Of a DNA stretch of 40,317 nt, positions 29,600-37,015 are shown in pieces. A program made the translations under genes and the position numbers. A model generated the notes under the pieces. That model saw only the letters and a list, made by a program, of their open reading frames with translations, searched no databases and had not been told where the DNA came from. The stretch is from NCBI GenBank assembly GCA_945957555.1, contig CAMFLX010000025.1, positions 1-40,317 on the forward strand, written 5' to 3'. Source of the stretch: an uncultured Cytophagales bacterium. GTDB taxonomy: Bacteria; Bacteroidota; Bacteroidia; Cytophagales; UBA9547. Position 1 is the first letter of the stretch. Every line of letters starts with the position of its first letter.

Positions 29600-32206
29600 T
29601 TATTTACCAATTAATATGTACGGTGCCCAGAAATAAGGGTTTGCACTTTCTTTGTTTTTTAGTAGTTTTATTTTACTTTTTTGTAATGATATGGCCATAT
29701 TTTCGTGAGACAGAGGTAGTGAAGTAAAAAAGAACTTCGTGATGTCTTGAGAATATGTATCTGAAACGTTCCAAAGGGATAAGATCATGGTCTGTACCCC
29801 AGAAAAAATAAGTGCTCTAGAGAGCCCCATGATGCCCTCCCCTTTAATGATTTTGCCGAGTCCAGTTTGGCAACAAGGCAAGAGAAGGAGCCTTGTGTCT
29901 ATGTTGAGGTTGTAGATTTCATTGGCATATAGATTGCCATCTTCTTTTTTGTCTGAATTTAGAAATATTTCAGATTTTTCTGGACTCATTTCGTCTACTA
30001 TACCATGTGAGGAAATCATGACATACTTAAATTTTTTGTTAAGCAAGTGCTTTAGGTTTCCTTCAGTGGCATCGGAAAAAAGTAACTTCTGTGTTTCATT
30101 TTTTTGTGATGTTAATATACTGTCGATATTGTAAATTTCTTTTTCCGCCCCTGGTAATGACACTAAACCGTTTTGGTAATTAACAGGACTACATAAGAGT
30201 GCATTGTTAGGGTATGTTTTTGCTTCGTTGAATTGTAGTAAGAATAAATTACTTGAATAATAATAGGATATCGCATGATGTCTTATTATATAATTGATTC
30301 TAACAAAGGAAGTAGTATCTTTTTTAGTATCTTTTTGGGTCAGAATTTCAAAAGGAATATTGCCGAGTTTGGGGTCTGGTATGATGATGAGTTGTGCATT
30401 CTTTTTAATCTTGAAATTAAATATTTTGTCGTTAAGATAATTGATCGATTTGATAAGTAACTTTGAATCATTATAGTTTACAGCATTTCTTAAGGAAATC
30501 AATCGCTTCTCAAATAGTTCGTCTTTAGGAGTAATAATAGCCTCTGTTTTGTATTTACTTATTATAAAGCAAATAATATTAGGATTAATGTCAGATATGT
30601 GATAATTGATAAGAATTTGATCCGCGCTTAGTTTTGTCTGAAGTTCTTTTGTCTTAATTGTTGAATTTTGATATTTTAGTTCAAAATATTTGGGATAGGT
30701 CTTCTCAATTAACTTTAGTAATAGTGCGTTCCTATTGTATAGTGTTACTAATTCATGGTTTGCGTTAGGAATTTGAGATTTATTGAGTTCATAGAACGAT
30801 ATCATTGACTTTAGTTCTATTTCTTTGTTGAGTATAGAGTCGGGAATGCCGGCAAACTTTTTTGATTTTGAATCGTTAATAGCGTCCAATAGTACACTGG
30901 ACTTGCGTTTCTCTGTGAAATTATAAGCAATTTCAAAGTAATGCTCCTTATTAGTTCCAAAATCATAAATTTTCAAAGCAGTTATTATAGCATTATCATA
31001 AAGTTGGGTTGTTGCCTTGTTTAGTGCAATTTTGTCATTTTCTAGTTTGGTGTTTTTTCTTATTTCATAAAGGATGCTGTCGGCTATTTGATAGACTTTT
31101 AATGCATTTTTAAGACGTTTAAGTTTAGGATTTTTGTGATAGTATATTGCTTCATTAAGTTCTGCTTCTAATATCATACTTTCTACGAAGAGTCGTTTAT
31201 TAATGATATTATTGAATTTTTGAAACAGCAAACAATTTTGAACTGCTTTTTCACCGAAAGCGGTGGTGTTGTTCTCATATGCAGAGCATAGGTGTTTTTC
31301 CGCTTCAACATATTTTTTTTGATGGATATAATAGCTTGCGAGTAGATTATCACTCGACGAAATTTCAGGATGTGGTTTTGTGTAGTATTTTTTTAAAATT
31401 GAATTACCTTTTAGTGCAAAATCGACGGATTTAATGAGATCTTTTTTCTCGGAATATAGCTGGGAAATGTTGTTTAAGACATAAGCTTGTATAGGTGTAT
31501 TATTAAAATTGTTATCAATAAATTGTAAGGAGGTTTCAAAGGTACTAAGGGCTTCATCAATTTTATTGGTTGTCTTATAGGCTAATGCCAGATTATTATT
31601 AAGCGATATTTTTGTGAGGTCGGTTTTTGTAAGTTTATAGCTATTTAAGCCCTCTAGGAAATAATTAATTGCTAAAGTGGGGCTGTTTTGTAAATAGACC
31701 AAGCCTAAGTTGTTGCATGACGATGCCCAAACTTTATGCTGTTTTGCATAATTGTTATGGTAATCTTTGAGTAGATGTTCCGCAAAACTAAAATTGTTTG
31801 TTAGCCAATAATTGATACCTAATGCCTTAATCACTGAATATTTTAAGTCTATTTCCTTAATGCTTTCAACATTAATTTCTGAAAGACTCTTTAGGGATTC
31901 ATCATAACGTCCAGTATATTGGTATATAAGTGAAATAAGTAACTTTTGAGTAATTTCGTTTTTGATGGTACCTATAAGTTTTTCGGCGTCTGCAATTTTA
32001 CCTGTTTTCACATAAGCTTCTACAAGTAGTTCTTTAGCATTATTTTCTTCTGTATTTTTATTGAGTAAAACTATAGCGTCTTCAAACTCGCCCATTTGTA
32101 TTTTCTCAGATGCTTTCTCTATTGGATTATTGGTTTGTGCATTTAAAGATTGGATAATGAAGATTACCAGAAAAATTATTTTTGAGGTTTTAAAAAGTGT
32201 ATTCAT
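29600..32206 (-). CDS. Exported TPR-CHAT protein (putative caspase-like protease)
   Basis: This 868-residue protein has a signal peptide ending Leu-Asn-Ala before Gln24. A long array of TPR helices follows (about residues 28-430, with units such as MGEFEDAIVLLNK, TGRYDESLKSL and TNKIDEALSTFETSL). A C-terminal CHAT domain begins near 600. CHAT is a clan CD cysteine-protease fold related to caspases. The catalytic pair is visible: His734 in ISSHGIVDE and Cys779 in LLPCCQTGLG. GEGIMGLSRALIFSGVQTMILSLWNV follows, then the terminal FWAPYILIG typical of the domain. It is last in a three-gene operon, overlapping the preceding gene by 17 bp. Substrate and partner are unknown. Confidence 0.9.
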   Translation of the reverse strand: MNTLFKTSKIIFLVIFIIQSLNAQTNNPIEKASEKIQMGEFEDAIVLLNKNTEENNAKELLVEAYVKTGKIADAEKLIGTIKNEITQKLLISLIYQYTGRYDESLKSLSEINVESIKEIDLKYSVIKALGINYWLTNNFSFAEHLLKDYHNNYAKQHKVWASSCNNLGLVYLQNSPTLAINYFLEGLNSYKLTKTDLTKISLNNNLALAYKTTNKIDEALSTFETSLQFIDNNFNNTPIQAYVLNNISQLYSEKKDLIKSVDFALKGNSILKKYYTKPHPEISSSDNLLASYYIHQKKYVEAEKHLCSAYENNTTAFGEKAVQNCLLFQKFNNIINKRLFVESMILEAELNEAIYYHKNPKLKRLKNALKVYQIADSILYEIRKNTKLENDKIALNKATTQLYDNAIITALKIYDFGTNKEHYFEIAYNFTEKRKSSVLLDAINDSKSKKFAGIPDSILNKEIELKSMISFYELNKSQIPNANHELVTLYNRNALLLKLIEKTYPKYFELKYQNSTIKTKELQTKLSADQILINYHISDINPNIICFIISKYKTEAIITPKDELFEKRLISLRNAVNYNDSKLLIKSINYLNDKIFNFKIKKNAQLIIIPDPKLGNIPFEILTQKDTKKDTTSFVRINYIIRHHAISYYYSSNLFLLQFNEAKTYPNNALLCSPVNYQNGLVSLPGAEKEIYNIDSILTSQKNETQKLLFSDATEGNLKHLLNKKFKYVMISSHGIVDEMSPEKSEIFLNSDKKEDGNLYANEIYNLNIDTRLLLLPCCQTGLGKIIKGEGIMGLSRALIFSGVQTMILSLWNVSDTYSQDITKFFFTSLPLSHENMAISLQKSKIKLLKNKESANPYFWAPYILIGK

Positions 32207-33140
32207 AGCTTATTGAAGTTACCGCTAGTCTAGATAGTCCGTCAGCGTTATTTTTTCTTTTTACTACTCTTGTTCCTACCAATATCTTTATACATGAGTG
32301 TATTGTGATCTTGTAACCACCACCGATCAGAAGTGTCATTGCTAGGCCATTACTACCTTCAACAGTTTCGTATTTGTTCGATTTTGGGTTTAAAAATTCG
32401 TCTTTTTTTAATCTATATATTGGTAGTAGACCAATATAGGTATTCCATTTTGAAAATCGAAAATTCCTTTCAATTCTAAGCATGATATCATATCCTCTTT
32501 TAAGGGCGTTTGACCGAGGGTAAACATTTATCTTAGCGCTATCTGACGTTTTGTTCCAAGGAGCCCATGTGAATTTGTTTTCGTTATGAGTTAGTGGGCT
32601 TTGAAAACCAGTTGCTATGAGCCATTTGGTGCTGCTTATAGATAATCCTGCAATAACGTCGTAGGTTCCCAAGGTTGGTTGGTAATACATAGGCAATGGT
32701 TTACCATCTGATGAGCTTCGATTAGGTTGGCCCAGTGGTATTTTAAAGCCTAATGTTGTATTTAAACTCCATTTTCTGTTTGACATTATATTTGTTGTCC
32801 CGCTTAGGGATAAATCGCTTAAGCCCGTAACATTGGTGATATTGCCGATAGTGGTATTGATTGGTAATTTGATTTGAATGGTACTTTTGTTAGAAATTCC
32901 TATATTGGCATCAATGATTTGTGACAGAAAATAATCGTAAATTTTTGAATTATTAAATTTAAAGTCAGTAACTCCCGCATAGCTGGTATATTCGATTGTT
33001 CTGATTTTAAAATTTAATTTGTCACTAAATTTTTGGTTGGGTCTCATTGCGCCCATAGTACAAAAGCCAGCATCGCTACAACCTTGAGCCATGCATATTT
33101 TACCAATGATTAATAAACATATCAATGAAATTGTTTTCAT
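32190..33140 (-). CDS. Probable outer-membrane beta-barrel protein in the CHAT operon
   Basis: The 316-residue product has a signal peptide (MKTISLICLLIIGKICMAQ). The mature N-terminus is short and cysteine-containing (GCSDAGFCTMG). A run of amphipathic strands ends in a terminal phenylalanine (SYEYTF), as in outer-membrane barrels. The size fits about 12-14 strands, and strand pairs such as KWSLNTTLGFKIPLG and WNTYIGLLPIYRLKK are visible. The CSDAGFCT start recurs, as I recall, in unnamed Bacteroidota outer-membrane proteins. Its start overlaps the MFS stop by 4 bp (ATGA) and its stop overlaps the TPR-CHAT start by 17 bp. Tight coupling suggests a shared process across the envelope. A channel or anchor for the CHAT protein is a guess. 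Confidence 0.75.
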   Translation of the reverse strand: MKTISLICLLIIGKICMAQGCSDAGFCTMGAMRPNQKFSDKLNFKIRTIEYTSYAGVTDFKFNNSKIYDYFLSQIIDANIGISNKSTIQIKLPINTTIGNITNVTGLSDLSLSGTTNIMSNRKWSLNTTLGFKIPLGQPNRSSSDGKPLPMYYQPTLGTYDVIAGLSISSTKWLIATGFQSPLTHNENKFTWAPWNKTSDSAKINVYPRSNALKRGYDIMLRIERNFRFSKWNTYIGLLPIYRLKKDEFLNPKSNKYETVEGSNGLAMTLLIGGGYKITIHSCIKILVGTRVVKRKNNADGLSRLAVTSISYEYTF

Positions 33141-34441
33141 TTTTTTGATAAGGCTTTTCTATTAAAGTTGATCAAAATTATAAAAGAAATGATACTTGCC
33201 AAAAAGTATATAATCAATGCAATAATACTTTGGCGCATTCCTCCTGTAATTTGATTAATAATACCAAATGACATGGTACCAAGTACTATGGAAATTTTCT
33301 CTATAAATTCATAAAAACTAAAGCTAGAGGTATTTGTTAGATTGGCTGGAAGGAGCTTGCTAAATGTTGATCTAGATAAACTTTGTACTCCCCCCATCAT
33401 AAAACCAACGATGACCGCCAGGATACAAAATTCTTTGTAGTTTGATGTGAAATATGCCCCAATACATATACCAATCCAGACAACACAGCAAACAGTCAAA
33501 GTCGTAATGTTCCCAATTTTTTTTGATAATTTCGCTAGTAGCATGGCTCCAACTACAGCGATAAGTTGTATAATAAGTATAATTGGAATAAGTTCTTCCT
33601 CTTTCAATTTAAGCTCTTTACTCCCAAATATGCCAGCGAGAAACATGATGGTTTGGATTCCTGCTGAATATAGAAAAAACGATATAATGTATAACATAAC
33701 GGTTTTATTGGCTCTGAGGTTTTTAGCTGTATATAAAATGTCTTTTAAGCCTAATGTTAATAAATTTTGATTTGAATCTTTTTTGATAAGTCGGTCTATT
33801 GGTAGCTTACTAAATGAATATGAGGCAAATATGAACCACCAAATACCTACCATTAAAAAGGAGATTTTTATGGACATTGTTTTTTCTAAACCTAGTTTTT
33901 CATGAAATATAATAATTGCTAGGTTAGTAATGAGTAATATTACACTCCCCACAAAGCCATAAGAATATCCCATAGCACTTACCTTATCTTGCAGTCGAGG
34001 TGATACGATTTGTGGAAGGTAGGAATTGTAGTAAGCAAGGCTGCCAGCATAACCAATAGTAGCCATAATGAACACAAAACAACCTATATAATAGTGATTT
34101 TTGTCAAAAAAATATAAAAGACAACAAGCTATGCTTCCTAAAGTAGAAAAGAATTTTAAGAATGATTTTTTTGTATCATAGACGTCTGATATGCCAGCAA
34201 GTAAAAGGTTTACGAATATTATACTTAAAAAGGAGACTGAAAGTAGAAAAGAAAAAAGTGTTCCTGTTTCTAATTCGAAGCCAAGGAGTGGTACTTTTTG
34301 TGAGGGAAATGCCTCATTTGATACAAATTCGAAATATCCTGGAAAAATTGCTGTGGTGATAGTGAGATTATAAGCTGAGTTTGCCCAATCGTACATACAC
34401 CACGCTTGAATAGTTTTTTTATTATTGAGTGATTTTTCCAA
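33137..34441 (-). CDS. UMF1/Atg22-type MFS transporter
   Basis: A 434-residue inner-membrane protein with about 12 helices. The N-terminal AWCMYDWANSAYNLTITTAIFPGYF is the signature of the UMF1 family (relatives of yeast Atg22 vacuolar amino-acid effluxer). The mid-protein SLAYYNSYLPQIVSPRLQDKVSAMGYSYGFVGS and GGVQSLSRSTFSKLLP also match. The substrate is unknown. The start is TTG 34441: a stop codon lies just upstream and the next in-frame methionine is inside the signature. First gene of the operon with the barrel protein and the TPR-CHAT protein; a TAGTTTTG element lies at 34467-34474. It is divergent from the symporter gene. Confidence 0.88.
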   Translation of the reverse strand: MEKSLNNKKTIQAWCMYDWANSAYNLTITTAIFPGYFEFVSNEAFPSQKVPLLGFELETGTLFSFLLSVSFLSIIFVNLLLAGISDVYDTKKSFLKFFSTLGSIACCLLYFFDKNHYYIGCFVFIMATIGYAGSLAYYNSYLPQIVSPRLQDKVSAMGYSYGFVGSVILLITNLAIIIFHEKLGLEKTMSIKISFLMVGIWWFIFASYSFSKLPIDRLIKKDSNQNLLTLGLKDILYTAKNLRANKTVMLYIISFFLYSAGIQTIMFLAGIFGSKELKLKEEELIPIILIIQLIAVVGAMLLAKLSKKIGNITTLTVCCVVWIGICIGAYFTSNYKEFCILAVIVGFMMGGVQSLSRSTFSKLLPANLTNTSSFSFYEFIEKISIVLGTMSFGIINQITGGMRQSIIALIIYFLASIISFIILINFNRKALSKK

Positions 34442-36277: not shown

Positions 36278-37015
36278 ATGAAATTTTTGAAGGATATCAA
36301 TAACAAGAAGCAAGTTGTAGACTTATATAAAGATTTAGGTGCTACTTTTATCACACCATATACTGAGTTAATCGAGAGATTGCCCAAGATAAAAGCTTTT
36401 GTATTTGACTGGGATGGGGTGTTTAATGCAGGTTCTAAAGGAGTGAGTTCTCCAAGTACCTTTTCTGAGCCTGACATTAGTGGTATTAACTTAATGCGAT
36501 ATTCATATTATCTTCATTATGGTGAAATACCTGCTGTGATCATTATTACTGGGGAGGCTAATGATAATTCTGTTAAGCTAGCCAATAGAGAGAATTTTAA
36601 TTTTGTGTATCAAAAAGTTGTCAATAAAGTTGATGCTTGTATTGATGTAATGAGTAAACTCAATCTTGTGGCAGGTGAAGTAGCTTGTGTATATGACGAT
36701 TTTAATGATAGTTCGATGGCCAAGATATGTGCTTTACGGTATTTGATCAATCGATCATCTAGTCCCATTTTTACATCATATTTGATTAATAACAATTTTT
36801 GTGATTATATAACTGCTCATTCACAACCATATAATCCAATTAGGGAGATTTGTGAATTGAACATGGCTTTATTGGGGAAATATGATGAAGCGGTGAATTC
36901 AAGAACAAATTTTGATGAGACATATAAAAAGTATATGGGTAAAAGGTCGGTCCTCAAGCCGGAATTTTATGCATTGCATAAGGGGACTTTTTCTGAGGTG
37001 ATTATCACAAGTTAG
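36278..37015 (+). CDS. HAD-superfamily (KdsC-like) phosphatase
   Basis: The 245-residue protein carries the HAD phosphatase motifs: nucleophile FDWDGVFNAG (Asp44, Asp46), motif II VIIITGEAND (Thr about 106), and metal motif VYDDFNDSSMA. In KdsC (Kdo-8-phosphate phosphatase) the corresponding first motif is DVDGVLTDG. Here there is no large cap domain either, so a C0/KdsC-like fold fits. The C-terminal third (REICELNMALLGKYDEAVNSR) is an extension not found in KdsC and, from memory, seen in a Bacteroidota-specific branch. The substrate is not known; no Kdo genes are next to it. YggS follows after 9 bp, indicating one operon. Confidence 0.85.
   Translation: MKFLKDINNKKQVVDLYKDLGATFITPYTELIERLPKIKAFVFDWDGVFNAGSKGVSSPSTFSEPDISGINLMRYSYYLHYGEIPAVIIITGEANDNSVKLANRENFNFVYQKVVNKVDACIDVMSKLNLVAGEVACVYDDFNDSSMAKICALRYLINRSSSPIFTSYLINNNFCDYITAHSQPYNPIREICELNMALLGKYDEAVNSRTNFDETYKKYMGKRSVLKPEFYALHKGTFSEVIITS

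Follow-up and report, generated by a model that had tools for sequence, protein, structure and literature searches.

The question raised by this locus is whether three overlapping genes for envelope proteins form a single system, and what that system might do. The genes occupy the minus strand of a 40,317-nucleotide stretch of DNA, referred to here as the window, from an uncultured Cytophagales bacterium (contig CAMFLX010000025.1 of assembly GCA_945957555.1). Gene 1 (33137..34441) has a TTG start and encodes a 434-amino acid UMF1/Atg22-like transporter of the major facilitator superfamily (MFS), matched by the ATG22-like model PF11700 (E 1.8e-67; 228.6 bits against a cut-off of 24.1). Gene 2 (32190..33140) encodes a 316-amino acid protein with no match in Pfam or NCBIfam, predicted from an AlphaFold2 model and fold matches to be an outer-membrane 12-stranded beta-barrel of FapF/COG4313-like fold. 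Gene 3 (29600..32206) encodes an 868-amino acid protease with a signal-peptide-like start, tetratricopeptide repeats (TPR) and a CHAT domain (PF12770; E 9.4e-48; 163.6 bits against a cut-off of 24). A first-pass annotation of this DNA had reported overlaps of 4 and 17 bases and treated the genes as one unit. The overlaps were confirmed on the open reading frames. As a unit, the set held for barrel and exported TPR-CHAT protease and failed for the MFS transporter. What is conserved is a pair, genes 2 and 3, not three genes. Across a large group of bacteria from soil and water, genomes tend to have either both barrel and protease or neither, and the two very probably work together.

The association was followed in two overlapping sets of genomes. 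Among 98 relatives, a search with the barrel protein gave matches in 35 at E <=0.001, or 34 after the weak match in G063 (E 5.5e-4) was dropped from the count. A protease profile search found an orthologue of more than 600 bits in 32 genomes, all of which were barrel-positive; this cut was picked after the table had been seen, and barrel-negative genomes scored no higher than 565.7 bits (G027). The table holds 32 genomes with both genes, 2 with the barrel alone, 0 with the protease alone and 64 with neither (Fisher, 8.5e-24). None of 200000 within-family shuffles reached the observed concordance, with eight families being mixed for presence and absence.

The larger set comprised 390 Cytophagales genomes, of which 84 carried the barrel and, at a preset threshold, 76 the protease. 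One of the 76, G514, was left out of the table, as its only match is a 1,199-amino acid paralogue. All 75 remaining CHAT genomes were barrel-positive, an orthologue was lacking from all 306 barrel-negative genomes, and 9 had the barrel alone. The 43 protease genomes new in this draw were all barrel-positive. No full-length CHAT orthologue above 800 bits was found outside Cytophagales among 395 genomes of the phylum. The barrel was also present in two plasmid records, both from Persicobacter.

Co-occurrence extends to genomes in which the two genes are apart. The pair was scored as non-adjacent in 16 of the 32 genomes of the smaller set, and the protease orthologue adjoins the barrel in 46 of the 75 genomes of the larger one, the remainder still carrying both. 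These unlinked counts are upper bounds, because in G002, counted as unlinked in both sets, the protease start lies beside the barrel at a contig end. The protease profile (A3) was built from barrel-adjacent proteases and so favours them; 29 unlinked or cut orthologues, which as such stand outside the profile, score in the same range.

A scan of contigs with patterns derived from the barrel tail returned 80 loci of 350 coding places, and all counts over 80 loci refer to these. They are labelled as Cytophagales-type bacteria or as broader Bacteroidetes bins, with a few labelled otherwise. In 62 of the 80, the gene that directly follows the barrel on its strand is TPR-CHAT. Of 61 loci measured, 51 have the TPR-CHAT start codon no more than 10 nucleotides from the barrel stop, and in 15 the two genes overlap. 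The survey of co-occurrence proposed by the first-pass annotation thus finds barrel and CHAT adjacent well beyond this genome, and co-inherited where they are unlinked. Such strict co-inheritance, often with adjacency, points to an undescribed envelope protease-channel system.

No third conserved gene was accepted from the neighbour clusters of the 80 loci, and inspection by eye found no gene shared among the surroundings of 16 CHAT loci that were cut or did not adjoin a barrel. Neighbours of the M23, molybdopterin, rhodanese-type and PCMT kinds were set aside as a third partner, as they seem to reflect a gene order passed down within a single clade. The M23 peptidase gene (~326 amino acids) is found in 42 of the 80 loci (L041-L120), usually one gene upstream of the barrel. 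Two loci (L065 and L096) contain two tandem barrel genes ahead of the protease.

The MFS gene follows a different pattern. It is present in ten of ten genomes of the family, including four that have no barrel (the barrel is found in six of the ten), and adjoins the barrel in the window only. It was absent from beside the barrel at 29 other barrel loci (1.5 kb flanks), where TPR-CHAT is a frequent neighbour, and none was labelled in the gene rows of the 80 loci. A three-part system that includes the transporter would account for the 4-base overlap of genes 1 and 2 in the window, but is extremely unlikely for a gene that is ubiquitous in the family and a neighbour in one genome. The transporter was rejected as a third member and is regarded as a bystander.

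The AlphaFold2 model of the barrel, made with 83 sequences, contains 12 long strands (predicted local distance difference test, pLDDT, 91.4; predicted template modelling score, pTM, 0.81). The top fold match is FapF (5o65; Foldseek E 1.3e-11; Z 23.9, 2.8 A over 240 residues). The COG4313 channel of Pseudomonas putida (4rl8; Z 23.8) has the same barrel fold but only 12% identity, and to our knowledge has no protease partner. The barrel domain spans residues 45-316 (32193..33008) and contains the invariant charged residues K91, D109, K133, D161, R215, D218, R222 and R304. Both genes 2 and 3 have signal-peptide-like starts, as called by eye and by a crude rule that 61 of 62 sequences pass. In the barrel the signal peptide covers residues 1-18 (33087..33140), from sequence and alignment. 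As Q19 follows it, cleavage before this residue is expected under the Bacteroidetes rule of cleavage before Gln (PMC5837995 and PMC10653852).

The most striking feature of the barrel, absent from the first-pass annotation, is the mature N-terminal tail that this cleavage would expose. The 80 loci were found by tail patterns and their tail conservation is therefore biased, so tail counts were taken from motif-free searches. In 30 sequences found in this way, entropy is 0.02 bits over residues 19-27 (QGCSDAGFC, a CX5C motif; 33060..33086), which is the most conserved stretch of the protein. It is 0.56 bits over residues 28-36 (TMGAMRPNQ; 33033..33059), 2.37 over the next eight residues and 1.71 over the barrel. 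The tail has a pLDDT of about 51-60 in the model, as expected for a mobile peptide. In a search of 19 genomes, the tail motif had one match per genome in 8 barrel-positive genomes and was absent from the other 11.

The second half of the tail follows the protease. The strict extension TMGAM[RK]P[ND]Q is found in 26 of 29 non-window Cytophagales loci found motif-free. Of the three loci without it (L036-L038), L037 (G011) has no full CHAT orthologue, and the other two barrels adjoin the protease and keep a looser GALxP form only. Elsewhere in the phylum the barrel was found in 57 of 395 genomes, and none of 26 distant loci inspected has a GA[ML]xP extension. Among second barrels that are not beside the protease, two of eight keep the extension. 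TMGAM[RK]P[ND]Q is a mark of protease-associated barrels. The shorter CSDAGxC marks a wide barrel family, over which no Pfam model reaches its cut-off.

The protease also begins with a signal peptide (residues 1-23; 32138..32206), which is followed by Q24, conserved in at least 90% of sequences. Its model (pLDDT 84.8; pTM 0.81) has a TPR superhelix at residues ~28-330 (31217..32125), identified by domain search, model and fold match, and a CHAT match at residues 601-868 (29603..30406). The TPRs resemble those of kinesin light chain, which is a peptide binder. The first-pass annotation had described His734 and Cys779 as intact. In all 56 full-length proteases aligned, that of the window included, these two positions (codons 30005..30007 and 29870..29872) are indeed occupied by H and C. 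The window protease reads MISSHG and LPCCQTGLG around them, as against HFATHG and LSACQTGLG in the group, with both catalytic residues kept. Over most of its chain the model matches Csx29 of Craspase (Foldseek E 1.5e-14; Z 28, ~590 residues), and its protease domain matches separase (5fby; Z 26.9, 308 residues). The genome of the window contains eight CHAT matches in all, most of them in open frames near 900-1400 amino acids. Two genomes of the phylum have a different TPR-CHAT group, of ~1030 amino acids, flanked on one side by an FtsY-like gene and on the other by one for an exported TPR protein (L203 and L204; names by eye).

The computed results are the conserved pair, its strict co-occurrence even when unlinked, the intact His and Cys, the predicted folds and the conservation of the tail. 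From these we infer contact and cleavage, and tentatively prefer a reading in which the protease docks on the tail of the channel and controls or matures it; this could well be correct, though it falls short of being probable. The first component would be a 12-stranded channel whose mature N-terminus forms a flexible, periplasm-facing tail made up of CX5C and then TMGAM[RK]P[ND]Q. The second would be a Sec-exported, Craspase-like TPR-CHAT cysteine protease, and the periplasm would be where tail and protease act. The TPR superhelix may grip the tail, and the bound protease would then cut a defined target, most likely the tail of the channel itself or a substrate in transit. This cut may open, close or mature the channel. 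The CX5C motif might tie docking to the redox state of the periplasm, which is the least certain step. The kind of mechanism favoured here is the one put forward as possible in the first-pass annotation: a system outside the cytoplasm for sensing, for processing or for maturing the barrel.

A number of observations weigh against docking on the tail and against a strict pair. Nine of the 84 barrel-positive genomes in the 390-genome set have no recognised CHAT orthologue (G011, G041, G482, G514, G540, G549, G557, G624 and G761); G624 and G761 carry distant barrels only, and G041, G514 and G549 are 79-84% complete. CSDAGxC is present in 26 of 26 distant barrels, none of which has this TPR-CHAT within ~1.5 kb. 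The motif is thus older than the pair, and at least that part of the tail has another job. The extension is also kept by the unlinked second barrel of G070 and by the other barrel of G062. Nor does the R/K-P bond of the tail readily suggest itself as a place where proteases of this clan would cut. Lastly, the fold is common to small-molecule channels (4rl8 and CymA), and so is no proof of protein export.

The closest parallel in layout is the Fap system of Pseudomonas. According to passages of PMC5557850, FapD is a Sec-exported cysteine protease that is needed for secretion through FapF and may cut the N-terminal linker of FapF. A 12-stranded barrel with an exported cysteine protease as partner is common to both systems, and the present pair resembles FapF/FapD with an unrelated protease in the place of FapD. 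FapD is a C39 peptidase whereas the protease here is a CHAT, and in place of the N-terminal coiled coil and helical plug of FapF this barrel has only a ~26-residue tail. At the locus itself no amyloid subunit gene was seen and no further gene is conserved in the unit. The parallel would suit a barrel that exports one or more polypeptides which the protease trims, with the tail not being the contact. This is unlikely, as no conserved cargo gene stands beside the pair, small-molecule channels share the fold, and the tracking of the protease group by the tail extension would be left unexplained.

Craspase suggests another use for the protease. In passages of PMC10028731, the state of its partner is described as arranging the active site allosterically, after which one precise cut follows. 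Orthologues cut at non-conserved residues, with position counting for more than sequence (PMC11106740), and the cut site here is therefore not readable from sequence. The likeness to Csx29 consists of a TPR superhelix and a CHAT domain with His and Cys over most of the chain. The differences are that the protease here is exported, its partner is an outer-membrane barrel, no CRISPR effector adjoins it and identity is 11-14%; gRAMP/Cas7-11 was not found next to TPR-CHAT, the neighbours being the barrel and unrelated genes. Separase shares the fold of the protease domain and no partner. It is also eukaryotic and is not exported.

On this model, barrel or tail might sense damage to the outer membrane or to redox balance and release the TPR-CHAT protease to cut another envelope protein, as Craspase cuts Csx30. 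Such an alarm is possible, if on balance unlikely. It draws on the Craspase-like architecture and its single, partner-controlled cut, and the patchy joint presence of both genes in eight mixed families suits a dispensable stress system. It lacks a third conserved gene at the locus as a possible target, and PADLOC-DB matched 0 families for the three window proteins at E up to 0.1. The same PADLOC result led to an anti-phage defence reading being dropped.

The CX5C motif brings in redox chemistry. When PDB sequences were searched with a profile, DsbD-alpha chains were the only matches, aligned at the barrel tail alone with weak statistical support (E 0.4-0.55). QGCADAGFC of DsbD-alpha and QGCSDAGFC of the barrel are identical in 8 of 9 residues. 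The two cysteines of the DsbD segment are the pair numbered C103 and C109. That pair forms the active site of nDsbD, and the DsbD motif sits in an immunoglobulin-like domain (passages of PMC7347389), whereas the barrel motif is part of a free N-terminus. No such domain surrounds it in the model, which has the motif in a short low-confidence tail before the barrel. Judged on the E-value alone the likeness would be discarded; so many identical residues at functional cysteines make it a lead, not a finding.

Were the lead followed, the tail could act as a DsbD-like thiol pair that keeps the protease cysteine, or another periplasmic thiol protein, reduced. The neighbours of some distant barrels suit this redox theme: of the 26 distant loci from other Bacteroidota, 8 have a DM13-domain gene next to the CSDAGxC barrel (L134-L141; Pfam), and a few have YHS-like or thioredoxin-like neighbours (YHS-like at L132). 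A relay of this kind is nonetheless very unlikely, given the E-value, the missing immunoglobulin-like domain and the lack of any recurrent redox neighbour in the 80 loci other than a rhodanese-domain tRNA hydroxylase. Docking of the protease on the tail could also be joined to the redox lead in a new envelope proteolytic switch. A DsbD-like redox peptide would form the channel N-terminus and be read by a periplasmic Craspase-like protease, with redox state or channel occupancy toggling the cut. This fuller version is speculative and thought improbable.

Few CHAT proteases have a known partner and target, and the best-known, Craspase and separase, act inside the cell. Here the partner is defined, a peptide that may serve for docking is at hand and the two catalytic residues are known, and the pair occurs in species available in culture, among them Cytophaga aurantiaca (locus L063). 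If the proposal is right, envelope control in Bacteroidota would gain a cut of the caspase type. The first-pass annotation knew of no described system with such a set, and the pair, the barrel family and the tail strings were likewise not found in a search of the open-access literature, which misses most subscription papers. The protease, the fold and the pairing of a channel with a periplasmic cysteine protease all belong to known kinds. What is new to us is their combination, together with the tail.

In the wider window, domain searches place a divergent sodium:solute symporter gene upstream of the locus and a TerC gene downstream. A 245-amino acid protein encoded at 36278-37015 has no Pfam match and shows weak NCBIfam similarity to KdsC-type phosphatases.

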